From the NCBI GenBank assembly GCA_028290665.1, contig JAQGJK010000004.1:124001-188000 (forward strand): a DNA stretch of 64,000 bases, given 5' to 3'. Origin of the DNA: Devosia sp. (GTDB taxonomy: Bacteria; Pseudomonadota; Alphaproteobacteria; Rhizobiales; Devosiaceae). Numbering within the stretch: the first letter of the stretch is position 1; each line of letters opens with the position of its first letter. Shown here one piece after another: positions 292 to 16,985 of the stretch. The position numbers were made by a program, and so were the translations under genes. The notes beneath the pieces are model-generated. The model was not told where the DNA came from. It did no database searches and was given only the letters and a program-made list of their open reading frames with translations.

Positions 292-3200
292 TTGGCAACC
301 TATAATCTTCAGCTTGCTGACGACGACTTTCTCGGCACTAACGGCGACGACATATTTTTCGTGGCGGCTAATATTGCACGGCTTGCCGGGACCGACGTCC
401 TCATGGGTGGAACTGGCAGAGATACGTTGCAGTTGGCCTCGACGAGTCTCTCGCTCGGTTATCAGCGACTTGTCGGCATGACTTCGGTCGAAGTCATCGA
501 CATGTTGGCAGCGACTTCGGGGGCGTCAGTCAGTCTTGATGCTGCTTCGGTCTCGCAGGCCGGATCTGCCGGACTGACACTCAAGTTTGGCGCCAATGTT
601 CTCATTCTCGATACGGCCCTCGTCGGAACAGCCGGCCAAGTTTACCTTGAGGGCACGGGTCAGGTAACGCTGCGGAATTTTTCCGGTCAGTCGGTCCAGA
701 TGGTCGATGGCATCTCCGGCCGGATCGACGGTGGAGATTTTTCCGATGTTATCATTGGTGGGACTGGGAACGACACAATCAACGGTCGCCTCGACGACGA
801 CAATATATCGGGCGGTGGCGGCAGCGATGCCCTCGGTGGCGATGCTGGGAACGATGCCCTGACCGGTAACGGCGGCGACGATACATTGAGCGGAGGCGAT
901 GGCTTCGACCTAATTTCCGCGGGACCGGGAAGCGATACCGCAACCGGCGGCGCGCAATCCGACACCTTCGTCGTCAGCGGCTCCGCCCAGTTGACGATTA
1001 CTGATTTTTCCGTGTCCGACCGCCATGAGTTAATCGATCTGCGCGCCGTTGTCGGCGTCACTAATTTCGACGACCTGGTAATCGTGCAGGCAGGGACCAA
1101 CGCCGTCATCACTGCTGGCGCCAGTTCGGTTACCCTCCAATCTGTAACGGCCACCGCGCTAACGGCCGCCGATTTCGTTTTCTCGGGCGATACTTTGACC
1201 ACGATTGCGGCGGTGCTGTCTGCCGATCCGACTGGCGTTCTTACCAGTGGCATCGACTCGCTCAGAGGACCTGGCGGGAATGATATCTTTGCGCTGAGTG
1301 GCTCCATCGAGCGTTTACTGAGTACCGACAGCATTGTTGGAGGCGGCGGTCTCGACACCCTGCGCATCATCGCGACGCAACCCTCTATTGGCGAAACGCG
1401 ACTAACCGGGCTGCAGTCCATCGAGCGGATCGACATGTCTGGATCGACCGGGCAGATCGAACTGCACCTTGATCAGGCCGCCGTCGATCAGGCGGAGGCG
1501 GACGCGCTGACGGTGGTGTACGGCGCCAATGCGCTCAAGATCGATGCTCAACTCGTCGATGGCTTCGGCACCGTAGTCCTGGCAGGCTCGGGTGCAGTTA
1601 CCGTCAGCAATTTCGGCATCCAGACCTTCACCTTCGCGGACGGCTACGATGCTGTCTTGATCGGCGGGGACGGCCGCGAGGTCATTACCGGCGGCAGTGG
1701 CAACGACCAGTTCTCGGGCAACCTTAACGATGACACGCTTGGCGGCGGCGACGGTGCCGATACGATAACGGGTGGTTTCGGCGACGACTATTTGTGTGGC
1801 GGAAATGGTGTCGACGACCTCGATGGCGGCGAAGACGACGACGTACTGACTGGCGGTTCCGGCGATGACAGCCTTGCTGGTGGCGCTGGTGACGACAACC
1901 TGACCGGTGGCGCCGACAACGATGCCCTCGATGGTGGCGCGGGTCGCGATACTTTGTCCGGCGGCAATGGCACCGACACCGTCACCGGCGGCACCGAGGC
2001 CGATCAGTTCATCATCGAGGCCGGCGGCGGGGCCCTGACAATCAACGATTTCGAAGCCGGCAACCGTCTTGAGCGAATTGATTTGCGGGCGTTCGGAGTG
2101 GCCACCTTCGATGAGCTAGATCTAAACACAGTCGGCGGGCGCGCGGTGGTCGACCTCGGAACGACTGCCGTTGCCCTGACCAACGTCGAGGTAGCTGCGC
2201 TGACCAAGGACAACTTCGTTTTCGCAGGGCAGGATCCGCTGCTTTATAAGGTATCCGCAGGGGCCACGGCCGAATCTATCCAGGCGCTTATCACGGGGGC
2301 GCCCGCCGGGGCGATCATCGAGCTCGCCGCGGGAGACTACAATTTCGCCAGCACGCTCGTCATCGACCGTAGCGACATCACTCTGCGGGGAGCGGGCAAC
2401 GACAAGACGATCATCCACTCGGCCATCCCCGACGCCAGCGCCGGCTCGGCACTGCTGGTGCACTCAGACGCAATCCGTATCCTCGCCGGCACCTTCACGC
2501 AGAACACGACGATAGATGCCCGGCAGATCACGCTCAGCGCCACCGGCGATATCAAAGTCGGCGACGTCATCTATGTCGGGCAGCCTAATGACGACGCATA
2601 TCTTGCAGCCACCGGCAACACGGGACTGGTCTATCCGACGACGCTTCCAGCGGACGCCCCCCGCTATTATTTGCGTGAGGCGATGGTTGAAGTCACCGCC
2701 ATCAACGGCAATACTTTGACGCTTTCGCACGCACTGCCCTACGCCTTCGAGTCCGGGAAGGCGTTCGTTTCGACAGCGCCTCTATTGGAAAACGTTCACG
2801 TCTCCGGCTTCAGCATCGTAACCGATGGACCGGCAGCTGATCCGACGCTTTTTGCAAACACCAACGATGCTTTCAACGGCGTCGCGACGATCGAGTTCGA
2901 TCAAGTCCGAAATTCGACGATCTCAGACGTCACCGTCAATCAGTCGGAATCGATCCCATTCAAATTCCAGCGAGTCTTCGACATCCAGGGAAATAACCTT
3001 GATGCTGATGGGGCCCATAACAAGGATGCAGGCGACGGTTACGGCCTCTATCTCATCGAAGCGTTTGCCAGCCAGTTTACAGACATCACAATTCTGAATA
3101 CGCGCCACGGCGTCATCACCTCGAGCTTTAATGCCGAGCACTTCAATACGGTCGAAGTCACCTATACCAATCGCGATATCAACTTCCACGGCAGCGCCGA

Positions 3201-5868
3201 CTCGCACAACACCATTCTGGTCCACCGTATGGTGATGCAGTATGGCGATGGCGACACCCAGTGGCGAGCCGTGTCACCGGGCACGTTTCCGATCCATCCG
3301 CAGTCGACTATCGATGCGAATGATGTCCGCTTCGAGTACGTCATTGCCGGCGATCGCAACGACACGCTTCATGCGGTCGACACCGGCGCGTATATGGACG
3401 GCGGCGCGCTGGGCGACATTATGTTCGGTGGGGCCGCCGCCGACACGTTGATCGGCGGCATTAGTGCCGACGTGCTGACCGGCGGTGGTGGCCGGGACCT
3501 GTTCCCGCGCGATATCTTCGCTGGTGCCGATACCATCAATGATTTCGTTGGCGGTGCAGCCGGCGACATCCTCGTGCTGCAGGGTTATGCTGCCGCAAGC
3601 TTCGATGAGCTGATCGTTACGCAGACCGGCGCCGACACTCTGGTCAACTACGGCAGCGCCGGAAGCACGCTGCTCAAGAATTTCACCAAGGCGAATTTTA
3701 CCAGTGACAATGTGCGCTTCGAGACGATCGGCGTCGCCAACACCATAACCTCCAGCGGCGACGTAGCGGTTGTGATGGGCAGCGACGGCGCCGACTTGAT
3801 CAATATCACCAAATACCCGCTTGAGCATCTGACGCCGATCATTGGTGGGGCAGGGTTCGACATTGCCAAAATTGCCGGCAGCTTCATCAGCACGGATACC
3901 GCGACGTTTGGTACGCTGCGTTCGCTCGAGGGCATGGATGTTAGCGCCGTTACCACGGTTTCGCTGAAATTCAGCGCCGCGATCTTCGAGCAAGTAGCAA
4001 CCAAGAGTTTTGAGCTGCGGATCGGCGATAGGGGTACCGTGGCGATGATTGACGCCGGAACACCGGTGGCCGGCGCCAGGTTGATCATCGACGGGCTGCG
4101 AACTGTCCAACTTACCAGCAATCGCGATCAGACGGTTTATGCAACGGACCGTGGGACATTTCGTGGAGGTTCTGCAGTCGATAAGTTGTTCGGCGGCACA
4201 GGGGCGGACAACTTCGACGGCGGGGCCGGAGCGGACCAGTTGGTTGGTGGCAACGGCGATGACACCCTTACCGGCGGTGCCGGCGACGACGTTCTCCAGG
4301 GCGATGCCGGCGCAGACAATCTTGACGGCGGTGAAGGATTGGACATTGCGAGCTATGCTGGCTCGGTCGATGCCGTCACCATCGATCTTGAAAGGCCGGT
4401 TGTAAACAGCGTGACCGATACGTTGACTGCAATCGAGGGCATCGAAGGGTCGCGCCTCGCCGATAGCCTGCGCGGTGACTTTTTGAATAATTTGCTGAAG
4501 GGTGGGGCCGGTTCTGATGCGCTGTATGGTCGCAACGGAACTGACGTGCTGATAGGAGGCGTTGGCGCCGACTTCATGAACGGGGGCGACGGCTTCGATA
4601 CCGCTTCCTACGAAGATGCGGTCGCGCGCGTTCTCGTCGATTTCGAAAAGCCTTCGATCAATCTAGGCGAGGCGGCCGGGGACACCTTGGTCAATATCGA
4701 GAACGTCATGGGAACCAGCTTCGGCGACGATCTGCGCGGTAATATCGGAGCTAACCGTCTGTTCGGCGGTGCCGGCAACGACCTTCTTTACGGCCGAGCC
4801 GGCAATGACGCACTCGAAGGTGGCGCTGGCGCCGACACCCTCAACGGTGGTTCGGGCATCAACTCGGCCTCGTACACCGGCGCCGCTGGGGCAGTACGAG
4901 TCGATCTCACGACGCCATCCCTCAACACCGGCGATGCCGCAAGGGATAGCTTCGTCTTCATCCAGAACTTGACTGGTTCGAGGTTTAACGACCACCTCAC
5001 CGGCGATGGCGCAGACAATGTCATCGACGGCGGCAGCGGCGCAGACACTATGGTGGGCGGGACCGGTAACGACACCTATATTGTCGACCAAATTGGCGAC
5101 ATCGTGACTGAAGCGAGGGATGGTGGAATCGATTCCATTCAAAGTCTGGTAAGTTATAGCCTGGCTACTCTCGAGGTCGAGAATGTCTACCTGACCGGTG
5201 TAGCCAACAGCAACGCTACGGGCAATACCAGCAACAATACGCTGGTCGGAAATGGTGGCAACAATTCGCTCAACGGCGGGGCTGGCGCCGATGCCATGCG
5301 CGGCGGTCGCGGCGACGACTTTTACAATGTCGATAATGCAGGCGATATCGTCGTCGAAAAAAGTGGACAGGGGTTCGATACGGTCAATAGCGTCGTCAAC
5401 TTTGTCCTCGCGGGAATGGAAGTCGAAAAGCTCATTCTCTCTGGTTCCGGGAATATCAAAGCGACCGGAAACAGCGGTATCAACGAGCTGGTCGGCAACT
5501 CACGTAATAATGTCATCGACGGTGCAGGTGGGTCAGATAAGCTGACGGGTGGCAGCGGTATCGATCATTTCTACTTCACTTCCACCCTGGCCACCAACAA
5601 TGTCGACACGATCACCGATTTCGCAGTTGGCACGGACAAAATCTTTCTCGGGCGGGCGGTCTTCACAGCGCTTCCGGCGGGCATCGTTCTCAGCCCGGAC
5701 GCCTTTGCCACTGGAACCGCTGCCAGCGATGCCTCAGACCGGGTTATCTACGATGCTACGACTGGCGCGCTGTTCTACGACCGCGATGGCATCGGCGGCG
5801 CTTCAGCGGTACGTTTTGCAATGCTCACAGCCAATTTAGGCCTGAGCGCGTCCGATTTTATTCTGTAG
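292..5868 (+). CDS. Large RTX-type secreted protein with embedded parallel beta-helix domain
   Basis: This 1,858-residue protein is probably exported by a type I secretion system and folds outside the cell on calcium. The start is TTG at 292, supported by an AGGAG about eight bases upstream. Glycine/aspartate nonapeptide repeats of the GGxGxDxLx kind occur in blocks near residues 150-225, 455-570, 1030-1070, 1295-1350, 1395-1440, 1475-1525 and 1570-1600. Residues about 653-1020 lack these repeats and look like a pectate-lyase-3 type right-handed beta-helix, starting with a surface-helix motif and ITLRGAGNDKTII. A module of about 120 residues occurs three times (near 21-139, 330-453, 1168-1286), and a serralysin-C-like module ending in FVFxGx also occurs three times. 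The C-terminus (DTITDFAVGTDKIFL) fits a type I secretion signal. No cysteine-rich or membrane segment dominates. It could be a polysaccharide lyase, epimerase or adhesin; the substrate is unknown. No secretion genes lie in the window. Confidence 0.85.
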   Translation: MATYNLQLADDDFLGTNGDDIFFVAANIARLAGTDVLMGGTGRDTLQLASTSLSLGYQRLVGMTSVEVIDMLAATSGASVSLDAASVSQAGSAGLTLKFGANVLILDTALVGTAGQVYLEGTGQVTLRNFSGQSVQMVDGISGRIDGGDFSDVIIGGTGNDTINGRLDDDNISGGGGSDALGGDAGNDALTGNGGDDTLSGGDGFDLISAGPGSDTATGGAQSDTFVVSGSAQLTITDFSVSDRHELIDLRAVVGVTNFDDLVIVQAGTNAVITAGASSVTLQSVTATALTAADFVFSGDTLTTIAAVLSADPTGVLTSGIDSLRGPGGNDIFALSGSIERLLSTDSIVGGGGLDTLRIIATQPSIGETRLTGLQSIERIDMSGSTGQIELHLDQAAVDQAEADALTVVYGANALKIDAQLVDGFGTVVLAGSGAVTVSNFGIQTFTFADGYDAVLIGGDGREVITGGSGNDQFSGNLNDDTLGGGDGADTITGGFGDDYLCGGNGVDDLDGGEDDDVLTGGSGDDSLAGGAGDDNLTGGADNDALDGGAGRDTLSGGNGTDTVTGGTEADQFIIEAGGGALTINDFEAGNRLERIDLRAFGVATFDELDLNTVGGRAVVDLGTTAVALTNVEVAALTKDNFVFAGQDPLLYKVSAGATAESIQALITGAPAGAIIELAAGDYNFASTLVIDRSDITLRGAGNDKTIIHSAIPDASAGSALLVHSDAIRILAGTFTQNTTIDARQITLSATGDIKVGDVIYVGQPNDDAYLAATGNTGLVYPTTLPADAPRYYLREAMVEVTAINGNTLTLSHALPYAFESGKAFVSTAPLLENVHVSGFSIVTDGPAADPTLFANTNDAFNGVATIEFDQVRNSTISDVTVNQSESIPFKFQRVFDIQGNNLDADGAHNKDAGDGYGLYLIEAFASQFTDITILNTRHGVITSSFNAEHFNTVEVTYTNRDINFHGSADSHNTILVHRMVMQYGDGDTQWRAVSPGTFPIHPQSTIDANDVRFEYVIAGDRNDTLHAVDTGAYMDGGALGDIMFGGAAADTLIGGISADVLTGGGGRDLFPRDIFAGADTINDFVGGAAGDILVLQGYAAASFDELIVTQTGADTLVNYGSAGSTLLKNFTKANFTSDNVRFETIGVANTITSSGDVAVVMGSDGADLINITKYPLEHLTPIIGGAGFDIAKIAGSFISTDTATFGTLRSLEGMDVSAVTTVSLKFSAAIFEQVATKSFELRIGDRGTVAMIDAGTPVAGARLIIDGLRTVQLTSNRDQTVYATDRGTFRGGSAVDKLFGGTGADNFDGGAGADQLVGGNGDDTLTGGAGDDVLQGDAGADNLDGGEGLDIASYAGSVDAVTIDLERPVVNSVTDTLTAIEGIEGSRLADSLRGDFLNNLLKGGAGSDALYGRNGTDVLIGGVGADFMNGGDGFDTASYEDAVARVLVDFEKPSINLGEAAGDTLVNIENVMGTSFGDDLRGNIGANRLFGGAGNDLLYGRAGNDALEGGAGADTLNGGSGINSASYTGAAGAVRVDLTTPSLNTGDAARDSFVFIQNLTGSRFNDHLTGDGADNVIDGGSGADTMVGGTGNDTYIVDQIGDIVTEARDGGIDSIQSLVSYSLATLEVENVYLTGVANSNATGNTSNNTLVGNGGNNSLNGGAGADAMRGGRGDDFYNVDNAGDIVVEKSGQGFDTVNSVVNFVLAGMEVEKLILSGSGNIKATGNSGINELVGNSRNNVIDGAGGSDKLTGGSGIDHFYFTSTLATNNVDTITDFAVGTDKIFLGRAVFTALPAGIVLSPDAFATGTAASDASDRVIYDATTGALFYDRDGIGGASAVRFAMLTANLGLSASDFIL

Positions 5869-6119: not shown

Positions 6120-7172
6120 ATGATCAGTTTTGCGGGGCGAGTCTCAGACGGAGAATTGTTGATTTCGGGCGCCTTTGACGGGTCCCACGTGGGCAAAATT
6201 ATTGTTAAGCTCGTATATTGCAGAGGTGTAACAAACGATCTGACGTTGCAATGGCCTGGTGATTTTATCAAACGTTCTGACAGTGCCGTTATGGACGTTC
6301 GTATTGGTCGGCAGGTCTACGAAAAAGATGTTGCGTTAGTTTCTGTGCATATTAGCTCGGCCGATTTGCCTACAAGATATACCAAGCGCTGGTTACTCGT
6401 TCGCTTGTTCCCAGAAAGCGCAGAAGAATTTGAGCAGCACTATTTTCGTAAAAAACATCGTCAGCAGGACTTTTATACACACCTGTTTTCAGTAAACCAA
6501 ATTATGCGCTACTACGATATTGACCTCGGGCATCGGTGCGTTGCCGCGGTTATTCTCGCCTACCGAAACCTTGATATTGGCAAGACGGCGGATTTCGATA
6601 CTGCCATCGATTATCTCCGAGCGTTGATCTTGCGTGTCGCGGAGTTACCGCAAACCAACGGACCACGCACCGACCGGGACCATTTGACCGGTTCGCTCTA
6701 CACCGCCTTGTGGCTGATGCTGCTCGGGGCGGGGCGGTTCGATGAAATTCTGGGCGAACTTGACAGCTATGTTGCGCTGTTGCGTGGTTTTGACGATTCT
6801 TTCGCCGGCGTCGTCCTCAACGGCAGCCTGTCGATTCTGCTTTGTGCCTATTTGCACCAGCTCCGAGACGAAGCGGAATTGGCTGATGAGTTATACGCGT
6901 TTAATCACCAGTTTTATGTGCATCACCTTCCGCGTCTTACTCCGTCGCCAATCTGGTTCAACGAAATGCTCCAGGCGCACAAGGCCGTCGCGATCGGCCT
7001 CACCGCGAGGCGAGCCGGTGCTGTCAAGGCGACCGAATTCGCGCAAACGGTACTCGAACTATCACACCGCGTCTTTTCGACCGTTGGAAGGGAACTGCTC
7101 AGCCGGCGCTTCACGACACTCGTCGCACAAGTCCGCGCAGCTGGTGGCGCACATGAGCTTCAGACCCGATAG
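6120..7172 (+). CDS. Unrecognised 350-residue protein in the glycan/RTX region
   Basis: I do not recognise this protein. Its first 100 or so residues look mostly beta-stranded (for example GELLISGAFDG and GKIIVKLVY). The remainder looks alpha-helical, with paired helices that could be a TPR-like or solenoid fold, such as the stretch around residues 180-250. There is no signal peptide, no clear membrane segment and no catalytic motif I can name. The first third is markedly AT-richer than the housekeeping genes in the window, which suggests acquired DNA. It lies 251 bases after the RTX gene and about 110 bases before the methyltransferase, on the same strand, so it may belong with either. The start is ATG at 6120 without a strong ribosome binding site. 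That the reading frame is a real gene is likely from its length and composition. Confidence 0.7.
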   Translation: MISFAGRVSDGELLISGAFDGSHVGKIIVKLVYCRGVTNDLTLQWPGDFIKRSDSAVMDVRIGRQVYEKDVALVSVHISSADLPTRYTKRWLLVRLFPESAEEFEQHYFRKKHRQQDFYTHLFSVNQIMRYYDIDLGHRCVAAVILAYRNLDIGKTADFDTAIDYLRALILRVAELPQTNGPRTDRDHLTGSLYTALWLMLLGAGRFDEILGELDSYVALLRGFDDSFAGVVLNGSLSILLCAYLHQLRDEAELADELYAFNHQFYVHHLPRLTPSPIWFNEMLQAHKAVAIGLTARRAGAVKATEFAQTVLELSHRVFSTVGRELLSRRFTTLVAQVRAAGGAHELQTR

Positions 7173-9030: not shown

Positions 9031-10566
9031 CTACGCCTGGTTGCGGAAGTATTTGTGGTGTTCGCTCGACCGGACTTGCTTGAATTCCTCGCCGACGATC
9101 AATTCGGCCTCGCGGACCTTGTCGACGTATTCCTTGAACGAGGGCCCGGTCAGATCAATAGCGACGGCGTCGAAGTGGGCCCATTCGGTGTTGCCCATCT
9201 TCACATGCTTTTCGACCATCTGCGCCCCGGCGGCGACCGCCATGACCGAGGCCATCCAGCCAAAATCATGGCTTGAATAGGCCGGCACGATTCGCGGTTC
9301 CTGGCGCGACAGTTCAAAATAGTGCCTGACAACTCCGATGCCGCAGTCTTCGACCGGCGTCGGATAGGCCGAGTTCGCCTGCATCAGATAGAGCTGCTTG
9401 CAGCGCTTGAAGGTCTCGAGGACCCATTGCTCATACCCGGTGTCGGTCATGCCCGTCGACAGCACCACGGCGCCTCCGAAATTGGCGGCGACATGGCTAA
9501 GATATTCAGTGTGCTCGGAGATTGTCGACGGCAGCTTCATCCGCCTGGGCTCGAACTGCAGCATGAACTTGAACGAATCCATGTCCAGCACCGAGGCGAA
9601 CCAGTCGATGTCGAGCTGCTTGCACAATGCATCCAGCGCAGCAAAGTCATCGGCGTCGAGTTCGAGCTGACGGCGATAATCCCCAAAGGTGGTGCCGAAC
9701 GGCGAGGCATAGCGAGACCGCAACTGCTCGTCGGAATAGAAGGTTTCAACGTGCCGCTTTTGCACCTTGATAAGGTCGGCACCGGCTGCCTTGGCGGCGC
9801 GCACCATGCGTTCAAGGCGCAGCCGGTCGCCGAAATGATTGGTCGTCAACTCAGCGGTAACAAGGACCCGGTGCGGCGCATCCAGCGCGCGGACCGGTTG
9901 CGTCAGGAAGGCGTTATTGAGCTCGGCGGGCGTCAGCGCACTCAGTGCCTTGGTGCCGACGTGACGGACTTCGATCTCGGAGCCCTTGAGCACGTAGAGC
10001 GCGTTGATGAAGAAATATTCCTGCATCAGGATCTTGGGCTGGCGATCGTGCTCGTGGCTCGGTGCGTAGTCGAGGCCGAGACGCTGGCTGTAGGCATGCG
10101 TCGGATCGTACTCGAAATCGAACCCGACCATATACACCGTCTGGGTCCGCCCACGGGACTTCGCGATTCGCCGCGCGATCTGCAGGGCGCTCATGAACAG
10201 CACGTCTTCGAGGACGACATCGTCCTGCTGTAGGCGCTGGATCATCAGATCAGCACTTTCCTGCGTCAACGGCACATGCGGGCGGTTGAGGACCTGGCGT
10301 TGCGGCGCCCGAAAATCGGTCGAGGTAACGTACAGGCGCGAGCGGAACCCCGCCTCGGCGATCGAAGACTTGACCCAGTCGCCATGAAAGACGGTGATAT
10401 CGGCCGGCGCGATGCGTTCAGCGTCGTTTAGCGCAATGACCAACGAGCCGGCGAAGACCTGCGGGTCGACGGCGTCGGCAGACGGTCCCTTACCGAGGAT
10501 GAAGATCGTATCGGTGGCGTATGTCGAAGCGATAGCGTCGATCGGGCTCAAGATAACGTCCGTCAT
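9031..10566 (-). CDS. Fusion of a GT42/DUF115-like domain with a NeuB-like nonulosonate synthase
   Basis: Residues about 233-505 are a NeuB-family synthase, which condenses phosphoenolpyruvate with an amino sugar. They show AELTTNHFG (a version of AExGxNHxG), AAKAAGADLIKVQ, LSTGM, a YP motif near 401, YSSHDFG and EKHVKMG. The usual C-terminal antifreeze-like SAF domain is absent because the protein ends just after the barrel. Residues about 18-205 form a second domain with FILGKGPSADAVDP at its start and VYMVGFDFEYD near 144-154. This order resembles GT42 sialyltransferases (Cst-II type) and the DUF115/MptE-like family. One chain may thus make and transfer, or make and sense, the same sugar; this is inference. 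The ATG at 10566 has a good GGAGGGA ribosome site, even though it lies 77 bases inside the upstream phosphatase gene. Confidence 0.8.
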   Translation of the reverse strand: MTDVILSPIDAIASTYATDTIFILGKGPSADAVDPQVFAGSLVIALNDAERIAPADITVFHGDWVKSSIAEAGFRSRLYVTSTDFRAPQRQVLNRPHVPLTQESADLMIQRLQQDDVVLEDVLFMSALQIARRIAKSRGRTQTVYMVGFDFEYDPTHAYSQRLGLDYAPSHEHDRQPKILMQEYFFINALYVLKGSEIEVRHVGTKALSALTPAELNNAFLTQPVRALDAPHRVLVTAELTTNHFGDRLRLERMVRAAKAAGADLIKVQKRHVETFYSDEQLRSRYASPFGTTFGDYRRQLELDADDFAALDALCKQLDIDWFASVLDMDSFKFMLQFEPRRMKLPSTISEHTEYLSHVAANFGGAVVLSTGMTDTGYEQWVLETFKRCKQLYLMQANSAYPTPVEDCGIGVVRHYFELSRQEPRIVPAYSSHDFGWMASVMAVAAGAQMVEKHVKMGNTEWAHFDAVAIDLTGPSFKEYVDKVREAELIVGEEFKQVRSSEHHKYFRNQA

Positions 10567-11209
10567 AAGGCATTCCCTCCACCGTCACGTCGCAGCCCTG
10601 CTCCTGGGCGAGTACAAGCCCGGCAAGCATGTCCCAAGTGTAAGCGCCCTTGGGGTTGGTGAAGCGGGCGAACGCGCCGCGTGACACGTTGTATAGATTA
10701 TAGACCGCACATCCCATTATCCGGGCTTCCCCGGCAGTCGAAAGGTCGGTGACAAGTTCGGGCGTGATCGACGATGAAAATCCGGTTACGCGTGAAGTCT
10801 GGAGCTGCGGTCGATCACCGGTGAGCAGCCGGTCGCCCAATTCGGGCATGGTAATCAGGCTCGCCACATGACTACCCCGATGCCAGAGCGAAATCGCGGT
10901 TCCCCACTCCTTCAACCCCGAGGTGAAGTTCTCGGTGCCGTCGATGGGGTCAACAACGGCTATCCAGTCCTCGCGACTTGCCGGCGCTGCGGCATCGAAT
11001 GACTCTTCACCGATAAACTGCACCCGCCCAAAATAACTTAGCAGCGCTTCGCGGACCAGATCCTCGACCAGGAAGTCTGCAGCGGTAACGGGACTTGAGT
11101 CTGGTTTGAAGCGCCGTTCGAATCGCAATTCTCGAATTCGTGGCAGACTGTTCAGGATCAGCGTGTCGATGCGATCAAGCAGTGCAGTTACGTCGCTGAC
11201 GGAGCTCAT
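10490..11209 (-). CDS. Inositol-monophosphatase-family sugar phosphatase
   Basis: This 239-residue protein belongs to the lithium-sensitive, magnesium-dependent phosphatase superfamily (IMPase, CysQ, histidinol-phosphatase types). The metal-binding motifs are plain: GEES near 67-70, VDPIDGTENF near 86-95 and WDMLAG in the C-terminal third. I chose the ATG at 11209; a TTG at 11278 is also in frame, but neither has a good ribosome site. The gene precedes the NeuB-like fusion and overlaps it by 77 bases, so the two are probably translated together. In this setting it may remove phosphate from a sugar-phosphate intermediate of the nonulosonate route, as happens when a 9-phosphate product is made. 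A role in inositol or PAP metabolism cannot be excluded by sequence alone. Confidence 0.83.
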   Translation of the reverse strand: MSSVSDVTALLDRIDTLILNSLPRIRELRFERRFKPDSSPVTAADFLVEDLVREALLSYFGRVQFIGEESFDAAAPASREDWIAVVDPIDGTENFTSGLKEWGTAISLWHRGSHVASLITMPELGDRLLTGDRPQLQTSRVTGFSSSITPELVTDLSTAGEARIMGCAVYNLYNVSRGAFARFTNPKGAYTWDMLAGLVLAQEQGCDVTVEGMPYDGRYLEPDRRYRFDIRHRYDLHPR

Positions 11210-11582
11210 GAAATTTTCGGACGTCCATGCAATTTGTGCCGATTGAAGGTCGGCAATACCGGGTTTTACTTGCCGCAAAACGTATGCGTTGAGCTATGGC
11301 AGGGTCATCGCGGCAGCCGACCGGAGTGATGACTCGTCTAGCTCATCGACTAGCCGCAGTCCACCAGGGGGTTTGGAGTTTGACGGATTTTGGCGCTATT
11401 TTGACCTGATCGACGTCTAAATCAATGCAAGGAACTTGGGGTTCCAATCAGTGAAGTTTCTGATGGTTAGATATCGTTTGGTAAAAAATGTCTTTGCGCA
11501 TATCTGTCCAGACATCATAAAAAGACCTTTTAGTCCGAAAATAATACAAACGCTCTTTATCTTGTTGTCTGAAAGTCTCGTT
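11210..11582. other. AT-rich intergenic region between the CgeB-like gene and the phosphatase gene
   Basis: I see no gene of its own here. The part from about 11,400 to 11,582 is conspicuously AT-rich next to the surrounding 60% plus GC sequence. It should hold the promoter for the phosphatase, NeuB-like and cytidylyltransferase group on the minus strand and the end of the CgeB-like transcript. No hairpin with a T-run was found. Short open frames crossing it continue as antisense shadows of the CgeB-like gene. Confidence 0.4.
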
Positions 11583-13145
11583 TCATACCAATTGCGCTTC
11601 GTCCGTGAAAAAACGACCAAGACCTCGTCTGCGGGCAATGACTTCATACACAGCAATGATATCGTCGGCCCGGTGATCGAATGTATGGTTTGCCATGACG
11701 ATTGCCCGGGCTCGTTCGGCGCGTGCAGCCCGCTCTTCAGGATGGGCGAGATAGTAAGTGACCTTGTCCTTGAGTTCCCGCGGATCGGCCGCAGTCTCAA
11801 TAGCGTCGCCAAACACTTCCGCTAGGCCACGCACCGGATCGGTGATGATGAAAGCTCCAGCGGCTGAACCGTCGAACAACCGGTTCGACAGGAAGCCCTC
11901 CTCGCGCATCGTGTCCCAGTGATCGTTCAACAGAATTTCACAGGAGCCGTACCAGCGATGCAGGTCCTCATTTAGGATATGCGTGCCGAGCACATAGTGA
12001 TCGGGAATGACGTCGGTCCAGCGGCTGCCGAACACCGCCAGGTCGATGCCCTGCTCGACGCACCAGCGCACGATCGTGCGATATTCCTTTCGCGAGTTTC
12101 CCACAAACAGTGCCGATTGAGCGAGGTTCAACTTTTTGACCGTTGGACGAAACACCGCTGGATCGGTCGCCTGATGCAGCGTGCTGACCGGCGTCGACGT
12201 CTGGTTGCTCAGTGCCCGGGAATGAATGTCGGATGCCACGAACAGGTGGTCGAAATCGCGAGTTTCGGCGCCAGCGAGCCGGTCGGGATGACTGATCTGC
12301 CACATCAAGTTGACGGCCCCCGCATCGACCAGACACCGATGACGGCCGCGAAGGACCAGGTTGACGTCGTCGCCCTGGGTTTGCCACTCGTCCGCACAGT
12401 CGACCCTCGCTACCCAGCCGCGGCGCTGCAACGCAGCGGCCAGCTGTTTGCCATAGTGATAATCACCCCACTCGTGTGCAATCTTGAGGTTGGGCGCCGC
12501 AACCTTGATGCCAATGGTAACCGGCAAAGAACGCGACACCACCTGAGCAGCCACTCTCGGCGCTCGGGGCAAGACCGCTGGACTTCCCGGCAGTGCAGAA
12601 GGCGTTCCTGCCGGGATGATCTGAACGAAGCGATGTCCTGCGGCAGCGACGCTGTGGGGGATTATTAGCGTAAAAGCCCGGCGGCTTTTTCCCTCATGCG
12701 CCGGGTCGAGTACCGCGGCAGCCACCGCGACGATTTCTTGACCGACAACGGCAGAAACGGCAATGGGCGCATCGTCGTCCAGTTCATCGGCTACGATGTG
12801 ACCCCGGATGACGTTATCAATGACGCTGTCGACGCTACCACTGCGGGGGCGCGACCGATACCGCCGGGGGCTGCCAGGAAGTTCATTGCCTTCGGCGTCA
12901 CGGACATGAAGCACGTGTGATCGGCTATCCTGAGCTGCAGCGGGAAGCACCAAGGCAAATCCACATTGATCGTCGAGCCTCGGCGCGAACAGAAAGCGGC
13001 GCGGCAGGTGAGCCACCGCTGTGACGGCGGGCTCTCCCGCATCGATACTCAGGCTGACGCTTCCTCCAGCTGACGCCCAGCCCGTGACAGCGTCATCGAC
13101 CAGCGGATCGACCGCTCCATTCGGCAATTCTTCAGACGTGGACAT
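11583..13145 (-). CDS. CgeB-like glycosyltransferase with two N-terminal beta-sandwich modules
   Basis: Residues about 210-510 form a GT-B glycosyltransferase of the CgeB/YkvP kind (Glyco_trans_1_2). The marks are HLFVASDIHSRAL, ALFVGNSRKEYRTI, and REEGFLSNRLFDGSAAGAF, where the second glutamate and surrounding residues sit at the usual nucleotide-sugar site. In front are two modules of about 85-90 residues (near 13-97 and 103-192). Each begins with a VTGWA or IRGHI strand and ends in LPGSP. The same module recurs three times in the next gene upstream. There is no signal peptide or membrane segment, so the enzyme is presumably cytoplasmic or loosely membrane-attached. It begins nine bases after the stop of the family-2 enzyme, so the two are co-transcribed. 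The acceptor and donor are unknown. Confidence 0.82.
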   Translation of the reverse strand: MSTSEELPNGAVDPLVDDAVTGWASAGGSVSLSIDAGEPAVTAVAHLPRRFLFAPRLDDQCGFALVLPAAAQDSRSHVLHVRDAEGNELPGSPRRYRSRPRSGSVDSVIDNVIRGHIVADELDDDAPIAVSAVVGQEIVAVAAAVLDPAHEGKSRRAFTLIIPHSVAAAGHRFVQIIPAGTPSALPGSPAVLPRAPRVAAQVVSRSLPVTIGIKVAAPNLKIAHEWGDYHYGKQLAAALQRRGWVARVDCADEWQTQGDDVNLVLRGRHRCLVDAGAVNLMWQISHPDRLAGAETRDFDHLFVASDIHSRALSNQTSTPVSTLHQATDPAVFRPTVKKLNLAQSALFVGNSRKEYRTIVRWCVEQGIDLAVFGSRWTDVIPDHYVLGTHILNEDLHRWYGSCEILLNDHWDTMREEGFLSNRLFDGSAAGAFIITDPVRGLAEVFGDAIETAADPRELKDKVTYYLAHPEERAARAERARAIVMANHTFDHRADDIIAVYEVIARRRGLGRFFTDEAQLV

Positions 13146-13154
13146 GGCGAACCT

Positions 13155-16100
13155 TCAGCGATCAAGCAGGAGTGACAAGACAATCTTCAGCCGGTCGCGG
13201 ATCGTCGACACTTTATAGAGGTGATCGAACCGACGGCGACCGCGGACAGCCAGTTTGTCCAGCATCAACGTATCGGCGAGTACGGCATCAACCTGTTTGG
13301 TAGCCCGGGCAAGATCGGCAACATTGGCAGGAATGGCGACAGCCGCGCTACGCCAGGCGGCGTAGGCTTCGTCGTCGATGACCAGCAGTGGCACCCGCTT
13401 TTGCTGAGCAACAATTCCGGTTCCGATCAGCATGAACTTGTCCCACCGGCTCGGCACGGTCAGCAGGATCAGTTTGGCGTACTGCGCGTAGCCGAGAATC
13501 CCCCGATCGTCAGCGTCGAGGACCCGCTCTTTGTGAGCATCGAACAACGTAGCAGACCTATGGCCATCAACCCCGATGGTGATAAGCAGCGATGACTTTC
13601 CTGCCCGATTCCGCTCGATCAGCGCGGCCCTCCACCCCGCCTCAGCATGCTGTGGCACGATGAACATGACTGGCTTTGCGGCTATTAGGTCCGCTGCCAG
13701 CTGTCCGTCGAATGCTGCGATATTAGATAGCTGGTTGAGGTGCATTGTGCCGATTGCCGGCCCAACGCCATTATAGGACAACGAAAGTTGCTCACTTATC
13801 GAGCCAACGCGAAGGACCGGCATGCCGGCCTTCCCACCAAGAAAAGGGGCCACATCCGGCGCAAGGATCGCGGCTTCGCCAACCAGGAAATCCTCGGTCC
13901 TCTGGCCGGCGCGGCGCCAGATCACCTCGACGTCTGTCGATGCAACGGCGTCGTTCGCCATTCTTCGCAATTTCTCGGAGTCCGGCAGCACCAGACGCAC
14001 TTCAGCATCCTCCGCAAGTATAGCCGCGAGGCATACCAGAGATTTTGCCTGATCGACGTCGCCACCTGCAATGATTGTCAGAATTCGGCGATCACCTGAA
14101 GCGATCGATGGCGTGTCCAGCTCAAGCGCGCGCAACGCTTTCTTTGCCACGATCGCATTGAAGTCCGTCGTCGAGTTGAGGCTGGTGACCTGACCCCAGG
14201 CGACGTTCCGCCGATACAACGTCGTATAGAGCGGGATACTCTGCGCCTGGACGAGGCGCGTATAGCGTAGCACCAAATCCCAGTCCTGAACCCGCTGAAG
14301 GCTTTCATCGAAGCCGCCGACTACGTCGTACAGCCCGCGATCGAGGACAATCGAATTTAGATCGATGAAATTGCGGCGAAGCAGACCTTGATAATCGAAC
14401 GGGACCAGTTTCAGTGTGGCACTACTTACTCTGGCCCCAGTCGTATCTGTGTCGATATAGCCGCTGTACACGAGCCCTGCACGAGTCTTGATTAACCGGC
14501 TAAGCGATATCTCGAGAAATAGTGGGTGCCAGATATTGTCCGAGTCGAGGAATGCCAAATAGCTGCCGTGCGCAAATTTTAGCCCGAAATTGCGCGCCAC
14601 GGCGCCGTTGGATTTTTCGAGACGCAGGTAACGGATACGGGGATCGGAAAACGACTGGACCACGATCTCGGTCTTGTCGGTGCTACCGTCATCACAGACG
14701 ATTAGCTCCCAGTTCGTCCACGATTGATCGAGTATAGACTGGATTGCTTCGGCGATCAGGAAGCCCCGATTGAACGTGGGCATAATTATGCTGACCAGCG
14801 GCTTAGTAGATATCGCATGCTCGAGGAGGAAGCCAACGGCGTCCAACTCGTTCTGTTGCAGACTGCCTTCAAGCACTCTGCCATTGGCCTCATTGTCGAG
14901 CGCAACGTCCTCGATCATTCGGCGAACATGGCTGTTGAAGACAGACCGCGGGTTGCTTCGAGCGGTGTTGGCCGCCTTGTAAGTTGCGGCGAGGGATATT
15001 TCTATGGCTTGATTTCCGGACTGGGAACTCAGGTCAGTAATGCCACGCAACCAGTCGGCGACTGCCGTGACTGAAGTCTCGCTGCCCTTTGGCGCCAACG
15101 CAACGCCGGGTCCGGGCCGGCGCCACTCGCGCGCGCCCACCGACAACCAGTGTTGGAAGCCGGACTCGATTATACCTGCTTCAATGGCCTCTCTCGCATC
15201 GATGTACTGTGCCTGATACCAGGACTCATCGAACCAGGCATTTGGGCTGCGTCCGCGTGCCGCGCCTTGCTCGAGATAGTGCGACAGGGCCGACCCGGTC
15301 TTGCCGGCCTCGATCAGTACGGACACATCCGGGTACGCTACCAGATACCAGTCTGCATCGAACAGGCCGCTCCACTGTTCAGCCGATAAGGCCGCTTTTG
15401 CGGCAGATGGACCGGGCAAGGGAAGCGCGGGAAGTTCGCGATCGGCGAGCGTTGTCTCTCCGTCCTCGGCGCGAATAATGTCGAACGTCGCCACTGGTCC
15501 GATCGCTGCCGTGCCGATGCCGATCGACAGTGCAGTATCAGGAAGCGGAATGGAAAATCCGGCCCGGCGGTCAGCCAACGCGGCGACCCGGCGATCGGCT
15601 TTGACTTCGCCAAGCAGCCGGCCATCGACCCAGACGCTAAGCGCCACCGGCCGACCGGGCTCCAGAGTGTCGGTGATCCAGCCTGTGACCCGACGGAGCG
15701 CCACTGGATCGACATGTACTAGAAAGCGGTTCTGGCCGAAACGGACAGAGAACGGGCCGCCTGCAAGGCTTTGACCAAGCCGGAAACGCGCGAAAAGCTG
15801 GTGGACCCGTCCATCGCGAAGCGACAAGGGCAGGGGAAAGCGAAAGGCGCAGTGCCCGTTATTGTAGCCTGCACCAGCGAGTTCGGTATGCAGATTGTCG
15901 GCAACGACCTCAGCAACGACGAGGCCATCGGCGATGATTTCTACAGTAACTGGCGCCGGTGAGATTGCGCGATCAATCGCCCAACCAGATAATGCGCCGT
16001 CTGATCCAAGCTGTACCACCCCTTCCTGAGGGTTCGGGAGATACACTTCACGGGGGCTACCGCGCAGAACGGTTCCGGTCGATGCGACGCGCAGTTCGAG

Positions 16101-16985
16101 GCTGTGACGTTTCCCGTCCAACGCCGCTATCGGCAGCGCGGCCCGGAAGTGACCTGGTGTCGCTTGCGCGATGTAACTATCGCCGGTCATCGGCTCTGCG
16201 GCGAGGATCCCGGCAGCAGCCCCATCGACATAAAGGTCGAGCGCCACTGAACTGGCCGGATCGAAAGTCATCCAGGCAATGCCGGAAACGCCTCCCGCGT
16301 CGATACTCTCGACAACGCCAGCTCCATCGCTGGGAAACCCAAGTGTAAATGTTTGCGCCGGAACTGTTATAATTTTACCGACCGGGACTAAGCGGGAGTC
16401 GCCCTTCCTATCGAGCCCGACGGCGCGATTTCCCACCTTCACTACCTGCAGCGCGGCAACTTCCATCAGGCAATTGGGAAGCATTTCGAAAACGAGGTGG
16501 AACAGATCTGTCTGTCCATTCGACAGGACCTGCGTAAACAGGTGACGTTCGAGCCAAGTCCCATCGTCCGGTGCTGACTCCAAGACCTCCATCGTCATGG
16601 ACTTGCCCCGCTTGTCGAGGCCGGAAACCATTAATTTTGGCGATAAGGTGCCGCCAGTAACCCGGCTGATCCAGACGATGTCGAGCAGGTCGCCCGGGAC
16701 CACATTGTCAAGGGTGAAGCTCAGACAGAATCGCAGATAACCGTCGAGCGTCTCGGCGCGGCAGGCGACGACCGACTCGGGACCATCAAAGCCGCGACCA
16801 ACCGAAATTTCGAAGACATTGTTGCTTCCGGCCTGGAATTCGGCATGTACGTTGCGAACGATCTCTTCGCGGTTCGAATAGCTGCTGGATGGCAAAAGCT
16901 GCGGCTGCGCGTGATCAAGATCGAGGAGGTAAACCGTGCCGTCGCTAGGTTCCGTCTCGTGACCAGCGACAAGCGAGCTACTCAT
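13155..16985 (-). CDS. Giant multidomain family-2 glycosyltransferase (1,276 residues)
   Basis: The catalytic GT-A domain lies near residues 729-960: LVSIIMPTFNRG, then CDDGSTDKTEIVV, LDSDN as the metal-binding DxD, and VQDWDLVLRY as the acceptor-side motif. Three beta-sandwich modules (about 227-317, 322-417 and 421-517) precede it, each with a VSGxxW-like first strand, and the first two end near GSPREV or GGPFSV. Between them and the catalytic domain (about 541-625) are two copies of a repeat of the FDxxWYxxxYxD type that ends in HYLEQGA or HWLSVGA. This repeat is found in many surface-polysaccharide glycosyltransferases. The last 300 residues are a separate domain I cannot name; it may be a degenerate GT-B fold. 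The start is ATG at 16985. It heads the minus-strand group with the CgeB-like gene and probably acts in assembly of a surface glycan or a glycosylated protein. Confidence 0.85.
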   Translation of the reverse strand: MSSSLVAGHETEPSDGTVYLLDLDHAQPQLLPSSSYSNREEIVRNVHAEFQAGSNNVFEISVGRGFDGPESVVACRAETLDGYLRFCLSFTLDNVVPGDLLDIVWISRVTGGTLSPKLMVSGLDKRGKSMTMEVLESAPDDGTWLERHLFTQVLSNGQTDLFHLVFEMLPNCLMEVAALQVVKVGNRAVGLDRKGDSRLVPVGKIITVPAQTFTLGFPSDGAGVVESIDAGGVSGIAWMTFDPASSVALDLYVDGAAAGILAAEPMTGDSYIAQATPGHFRAALPIAALDGKRHSLELRVASTGTVLRGSPREVYLPNPQEGVVQLGSDGALSGWAIDRAISPAPVTVEIIADGLVVAEVVADNLHTELAGAGYNNGHCAFRFPLPLSLRDGRVHQLFARFRLGQSLAGGPFSVRFGQNRFLVHVDPVALRRVTGWITDTLEPGRPVALSVWVDGRLLGEVKADRRVAALADRRAGFSIPLPDTALSIGIGTAAIGPVATFDIIRAEDGETTLADRELPALPLPGPSAAKAALSAEQWSGLFDADWYLVAYPDVSVLIEAGKTGSALSHYLEQGAARGRSPNAWFDESWYQAQYIDAREAIEAGIIESGFQHWLSVGAREWRRPGPGVALAPKGSETSVTAVADWLRGITDLSSQSGNQAIEISLAATYKAANTARSNPRSVFNSHVRRMIEDVALDNEANGRVLEGSLQQNELDAVGFLLEHAISTKPLVSIIMPTFNRGFLIAEAIQSILDQSWTNWELIVCDDGSTDKTEIVVQSFSDPRIRYLRLEKSNGAVARNFGLKFAHGSYLAFLDSDNIWHPLFLEISLSRLIKTRAGLVYSGYIDTDTTGARVSSATLKLVPFDYQGLLRRNFIDLNSIVLDRGLYDVVGGFDESLQRVQDWDLVLRYTRLVQAQSIPLYTTLYRRNVAWGQVTSLNSTTDFNAIVAKKALRALELDTPSIASGDRRILTIIAGGDVDQAKSLVCLAAILAEDAEVRLVLPDSEKLRRMANDAVASTDVEVIWRRAGQRTEDFLVGEAAILAPDVAPFLGGKAGMPVLRVGSISEQLSLSYNGVGPAIGTMHLNQLSNIAAFDGQLAADLIAAKPVMFIVPQHAEAGWRAALIERNRAGKSSLLITIGVDGHRSATLFDAHKERVLDADDRGILGYAQYAKLILLTVPSRWDKFMLIGTGIVAQQKRVPLLVIDDEAYAAWRSAAVAIPANVADLARATKQVDAVLADTLMLDKLAVRGRRRFDHLYKVSTIRDRLKIVLSLLLDR

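Follow-up and report, generated by a model that had tools for sequence, protein, structure and literature searches.

In the window, the 64,000 nucleotides of a Devosia sp. contig analysed here, one open reading frame encodes a real and conserved two-domain enzyme, neither an artefact nor unique to this genome, in which a front domain of GT42-like predicted fold is joined to a NeuB-type synthase without a SAF domain. The most probable role of the gene is the synthesis of an uncommon acidic sugar for the cell surface. We tentatively propose that, together with an overlapping phosphatase gene and a CMP-synthetase gene, it forms a compact surface-polysaccharide cassette resembling in its logic the pathway to Kdo. 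The features discussed below are collected in Table 1.

Table 1 Features of the fusion gene and its surroundings (positions of the window; residues of the fusion protein)
Feature	Position	Strand	Basis
CMP-sugar cytidylyltransferase (NeuA/PseF/KdsB-like), 240 aa	8285..9007	-	PF02348, E 8.5e-9
Fusion gene, GT42-like front domain and SAF-less NeuB	9031..10566	-	ORF, PF03102 match, 68 intact homologues
C-terminal tail SEHHKY, residues 501-506, where SAF would be	9049..9066	-	alignment
NeuB TIM barrel, residues 233-499	9070..9870	-	PF03102, Foldseek
K-L-P-S-T-I-S motif, residues 344-350	9517..9537	-	alignment
K-V-Q-K-R motif, residues 267-271	9754..9768	-	motif comparison among NeuBs
Interdomain linker, residues 222-232	9871..9903	-	pLDDT <50 at 224-228; variable in alignment
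Front domain, residues 1-221	9904..10566	-	AF2 model, Foldseek, alignment
Overlap of 77 nt, phosphatase 3' end and fusion 5' end	10490..10566	-	ORF positions
Inositol-monophosphatase-family phosphatase, 262 aa, start codon uncertain	10490..11278	-	PF00459, E 3.4e-26
Glycosyltransferase (Glyco_trans_1_2), upstream in same gene run	11583..13145	-	PF13524, E 4.2e-27
Multidomain protein of 1276 aa with GT2 glycosyltransferase domain	13155..16985	-	PF00535, E 8.4e-30

The fusion gene begins with an ATG at 10566 and its product has 511 aa. A preliminary description of this DNA had given its coordinates exactly while omitting that it lies on the minus strand, and all of the motifs named there are present (GKGPS at residues 25-29, VYMVGFDFEYD at 144-154, AELTTNHFG at 238-246, and EKH at 452-454). 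The search for the same fusion in other genomes, which that description had suggested as a check, was run over ~85,000 species genomes with a profile from a five-sequence alignment and matched 70 loci, 68 of which hold an intact two-domain ORF of ~500-541 aa; in Nesterenkonia pannonica (L133) the fusion gene is interrupted by six in-frame stops, and Actinoplanes aureus (L130) has the NeuB half alone. Unlike this profile, a single-sequence query gave no match in the genome-contig scan. The carriers are spread over six phyla (Pseudomonadota, Actinomycetota, Cyanobacteriota, Deinococcota, Bacteroidota, and Balneolota). When the front half was used as a tblastn query, full-length fusions were recovered from Escherichia coli and Enterobacter, with 16 matching genomes (15 at full length, on chromosomes and plasmids) among 5,426 complete genomes of E. 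coli. An even draw of 398 Pseudomonadota genomes contained the front domain in two, one being the window's own, both in ORFs of fusion length, and a front domain without the NeuB half was found in none of the genomes scanned.

Purifying selection acts on both halves, and the front domain diverges faster (median pairwise identity of 43% vs. 63% for the NeuB half); its dN/dS of ~0.04, from three close, non-saturated pairs, indicates strong purifying selection. As the 68 full-length homologues retain both halves and the front-domain dN/dS is low, the fusion lies far beyond chance. The same 68 homologues rule out two genes joined through an assembly error, or falsely by sequencing as the preliminary description had considered. 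In the predicted two-domain model (pTM 0.65) the linker falls below pLDDT 50 and the arrangement of the domains is not confidently predicted.

An IMPase homologue, a gene absent from the preliminary description, lies directly upstream of the fusion in 61 of 75 loci and is its most constant partner gene, followed by a CMP-sugar cytidylyltransferase in 58, with both partners present in 55. In the window the latter starts 23 nt after the fusion (PseF model E 5.9e-16, under its cut-off), which agrees with the earlier expectation of a CMP-activating gene next in line. The overlap between the phosphatase and the fusion amounts to ~50-85 nt, usually ~70 nt, in most loci and to a few bases in the enterobacterial branch, and the DPIDGT, GEE, and WD motifs are intact in the window IMPase as well as in all 47 phosphatases of the recovered cluster. 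At least 10 actinobacterial loci (L101-L108, L116, and L133, from Nesterenkonia and Garicola) carry the fusion with no phosphatase nearby and mostly no CMP-synthetase. Beside the cassette, on the plus strand of the window, we also observed an 1858-aa RTX-repeat protein with 16 HemolysinCabind stretches (292-5868) and a 350-aa protein for which neither Pfam nor NCBIfam gave a match (6120-7172).

The NeuB half matches PF03102 over residues 254-494 (E 4.9e-42, 144.5 bits vs. a cut-off of 22.1), and its closest solved enzyme is pseudaminic acid synthase (Foldseek, PseI E 1.4e-13). Like the NeuB/NANS synthases (PF03102; 8h2c PseI, 1xuu NeuB, 6ncs), it has the TIM barrel, the PEP and metal residues, and, by expectation, the PEP-aldol chemistry. 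In 39 members K267, K344, S347, S370, Y401, and the metal histidines 433 and 454 are invariant; we take K267, K344, S347, H433, and H454 to be the PEP/metal residues from their known roles in NeuB enzymes. Unlike the SAF-bearing synthases, the fusion has a 221-aa front domain, the SEHHKY tail, and scores under the equivalog cut-offs, and its K-L-P-S-T-I-S sits where the Neisseria meningitidis and Campylobacter jejuni enzymes read K-I-x-S-x-E. As already noted in the preliminary description, the SAF part is missing, since the alignment to TIGR03569 (NeuB_NnaB sialic acid synthase) stops at model position 271 of 329 after starting at position 2; the fusion protein has no SAF Pfam match, the chain stopping 5 residues past SEHHKY. 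SAF is absent from every full-length member, in which the chain finishes right after the barrel with a tail where E502, H504, K505, and Y506 are invariant and H503 is kept in 38 of 39. Two SAF matches were found in the window's incomplete genome, on contigs (C9 and C19) other than that of the window. In the N. meningitidis NeuB, Arg314 of SAF makes contact with the N-acetyl of ManNAc, and for this reason the loss of SAF would fit a substrate without N-acetyl. Another apparent NeuB fusion was observed in three NeuBs of 635-743 aa (L013, L020, and L022), whose long C-terminal extension resembles, by eye, a sugar isomerase/epimerase TIM barrel.

A further indication of the substrate could come from the K-x-Q-K-R motif, present in 39 of 40 NeuB halves of the fusion clade. 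Among 27 other NeuBs from related genomes the motif occurs in seven, all with a HAD phosphatase that either adjoins the NeuB or is fused to its CMP-transferase, while none of the 20 NeuBs without it has such a neighbour; the comparison used 1.5 kb flanks and few, related sequences, so that its p-value of 1e-6 overstates the link. The seven NeuBs and the 40 fusion-family rows share the same side of a 100/99-supported branch, and the SAF-less sister NeuBs are paired with a CMP-transferase-HAD phosphatase fusion in 5 of 5 cases. Given this link and the shared branch, the economical reading is that the branch makes a phosphorylated ulosonate that would need a phosphatase before CMP activation, and K-x-Q-K-R may be taken as a circumstantial sign of an aldose-phosphate substrate. 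In the Kdo pathway, too, a phosphatase clears the ulosonate phosphate before CMP activation. The SAF-less NeuBs of L179-L182, from the window's order and the nearest tree group, resemble the fusion in K-x-Q-K-R, K-x-P-S, and their phosphatase and CMP-transferase neighbours, and differ in having no front domain, a HAD enzyme in place of the IMPase, other motif details, and another C-terminal tail. Three of these loci, where the NeuB adjoins the CMP-transferase-HAD phosphatase fusion (L182 3333-6868, L179 4935-8979, L181 5559-6728), hold gene sets that look like an uncharacterised capsule system; L179 and L182 also carry DUF6716 putative glycosyltransferases, and L182 a capsule-synthesis gene (PF05159).

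In the pathway that we propose, the NeuB half would join PEP to a phosphorylated aldose drawn from central metabolism, and the product would be the phosphate of a 3-deoxy-2-ulosonic acid that carries no N-acyl group. Condensation with PEP is very likely, given the family, and a phosphorylated substrate with an IMPase step is favoured with moderate confidence, the overlapping phosphatase presumably stripping the phosphate to leave the free ulosonate. The next gene would then convert this to the CMP-ulosonate, a highly probable step, and the front domain could bind the CMP-sugar and add it to a capsule or exopolysaccharide under construction, through an active site that differs from the classical GT42 one. 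Our leading guess is mannose-6-phosphate plus PEP giving Kdn-9-phosphate, with Kdn itself an unlikely choice when set against all other 2-ulosonic acids. The two weakest points are the catalytic role of the front domain and the nature of the sugar. A route of this order (aldose phosphate plus PEP, dephosphorylation, CMP activation) is described for Kdn in the haptophyte Prymnesium parvum (PMC6200933), which cites a Kdn-9-P/CMP-Kdn pathway in Bacteroides thetaiotaomicron. The present cassette shares this proposed logic and has a phosphatase partner, and differs in that its phosphatase is of the IMPase type and a GT42-like domain is fused to the synthase.

Where inspected, the cassette of E. coli and Enterobacter lies in the variable part of group-3 capsule clusters, surrounded by export genes, glycosyltransferases, rfbBDAC, and KpsC/KpsS-type genes. 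No NeuC-, Leg-, or Pse-type genes are annotated in the inspected clusters, and because rfbBDAC are the only annotated sugar-nucleotide genes besides the cassette, central metabolism would be the expected source of the precursor. Two proteins without a Pfam match beside the E. coli cassette, of 607 aa (L061 11762-13585) and 339 aa (L063 11749-12768), are candidate alternative transferases, and relatives of the former occur in several other loci. The available part of a study of E. coli group-3 clusters from 2023 (PMC10433991) reports CMP-sialic acid and inositol-type genes among the new clusters without discussing the fusion, and states that no cluster was assignable to K3 or K98. The cassette cluster as the K3 type, whose antigen contains a 4-deoxy-2-hexulosonic acid, is a lead only; the idea found no match in capsule papers and a 4-deoxy sugar is not expected from PEP condensation. 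Elsewhere, FPLJ01000048.1 (5186-5890), filed among phages with Moritella viscosa in its organism field, is annotated with a sialic acid synthase and a CMP-sialic acid synthetase.

The front domain alone had no match in Pfam or PDB sequence searches, and its placement comes from structure prediction. An AlphaFold2 model of residues 1-221 with 39 homologues reached pLDDT 93.4 and pTM 0.91, and in the PDB its first four Foldseek ranks were all CstII, a GT42 enzyme (E 1.1e-4 to 1.9e-4, probability 1.0, with modest TM-scores of 0.40-0.45), followed by a GT29 sialyltransferase and, in sixth place, the archaeal MptE of Methanocaldococcus jannaschii, of DUF115 type (E 0.014); named matches in a viral structure library were mostly MptE-like/DUF115 proteins. 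Modelled separately in this way, the domain resembles the very families that the preliminary description had named, and it is a predicted member of the GT42/GT29/DUF115 fold group. The motif order G-K-G-P-S, N-D block, Y-x-x-G-F-D-F agrees with GT42, and GKG 25-27, N47-D48, W64, Y79, G148-D150-F151, Q182, H202, G204, and S209 are invariant. With CstI and CstII (PF06002) it shares the predicted fold and the order G-x-G-P-S, Asn block, G-[FI]-D-F, and it departs from them in having GKG for GNG and in its fusion to NeuB. PF06002 gave no match to the window front domain up to E 10 or to the 39 members up to E 1, and the column of the GT42 general base (CstII His188) holds P177 in the window and His in 3 of 39 members, as placed through a remote alignment by way of a bona fide GT42 protein (L144), which was in turn matched to Cst enzymes of solved structure. 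By these tested criteria, with no Pfam match and no catalytic His, the domain falls outside GT42. With the DUF115/MptE-like and Maf-type proteins (PF01973) it has in common the G-x-G-P-S loop, a G-[FLI]-D-[FL] block, and a weak profile similarity limited to the glycine loop, but only 4 of 39 members match PF01973, all under the Pfam cut-off (best E 0.012), and the Asp of the S-I-D-P block has no invariant counterpart in the front-domain alignment. The protein L144 (460-2265, minus strand, genome G153) is apparently another GT42 fusion, as its GT42 domain is followed by a stretch that by eye is GT8/LgtC-like in a single chain of 601 aa.

The front domain may still act as a CMP-sugar transferase; we consider an active enzyme nearly as plausible as an inactive one, and the lost His, the modest TM-scores to CstII, and the missing Pfam GT42 match count against it. 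A loss of the His next to an invariant nucleotide-loop region (GKG, N47-D48) would equally be expected of a GT42-like module, catalytically dead or changed, to which the CMP-sugar binds as end product and which serves the synthase as regulator or scaffold, leaving the transfer to another glycosyltransferase, and it is consistent with this that the front domain is in every case joined to the first committed enzyme and that other glycosyltransferases lie within the same gene runs. Against it, the scanned region-2 proteins of E. coli contained no recognised ulosonate-transferase family, sequence divergence is faster in the front domain than in the NeuB half, as it is in acceptor-specific transferases, and the invariant H202, G204, and S209 suggest a second functional site, and we consider a purely regulatory or scaffolding role rather unlikely.

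It is improbable that the NeuB half makes ordinary Neu5Ac, Leg, or Pse from precursors produced elsewhere in the genome, with the IMPase unrelated. Its strong membership in the NeuB family and the pseudaminic acid synthase as closest solved enzyme would allow for this, but the scores are far below the NCBIfam cut-offs (127.2 vs. 399.65 bits for TIGR03569 and 97.8 vs. 340.25 bits for TIGR03586, PseI), neither SAF nor the K-I-x-S-x-E motif is retained, the phosphatase overlaps the fusion gene in most loci, and the precursor genes are absent from the E. coli capsule clusters.

The preliminary description had also suggested that the front domain might stand in for SAF as a lid over the active site of the synthase, as the conservation of this domain in all the SAF-less full-length members could imply. 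This did not hold up well. Solved NeuBs already include a SAF-less one, the 290-aa Leptospira enzyme 6ncs (TMt 0.79 to the NeuB half), and in the tree the group nearest the fusion clade, to which it is joined through long branches, consists of single-domain SAF-less NeuBs (L003, L004, L006, L007, and L008) that have no front domain either. As these nearest relatives already lack it, the loss of SAF probably preceded the gain of the front domain, and this speaks against a substitute lid; the invariant SEHHKY tail would be a simpler local replacement and the domain arrangement is not confidently predicted, making this role very unlikely. Hardly more can be said for an MptE-like (pyrophospho)kinase supplying the phosphorylated aldose to the NeuB half, to which the sixth fold rank, phage MptE-like proteins high in the viral library, the weak PF01973 matches, and an invariant Lys in the glycine loop would point, as the CstII E-values are better by two orders of magnitude and the S-I-D-P Asp lacks an invariant equivalent.

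The absence of SAF is by itself nothing new among NeuBs, as 6ncs and the sister group show. For the GT42-like/NeuB fusion architecture, which the preliminary description believed to be undescribed, no description was found in the open-licence papers searched either. NCBI annotates the fusion proteins as 'N-acetylneuraminate synthase family protein', the default for such NeuB homologues, while the subfamily probably makes no sialic acid at all. More tentatively than the pathway itself, we suggest a new bifunctional family in which a SAF-less NeuB making a phosphorylated, N-acyl-free ulosonate is combined with an unrecognised CMP-ulosonate transferase whose active site is not of GT42 type (GKG, N47-D48, H202), and with the phosphatase and CMP-synthetase makes up a portable capsule cassette that could account for some unassigned E. 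coli group-3 K-antigens. The link between K-x-Q-K-R and a phosphatase would offer a simple rule for sorting NeuBs by phosphorylated vs. unphosphorylated substrate. The cassette resides on plasmids and chromosomes of E. coli and Enterobacter, where its sugar would help define a serotype, and if the front domain does transfer the product, it would found a glycosyltransferase family of its own, and the fusion would be a synthase physically linked to a transferase.
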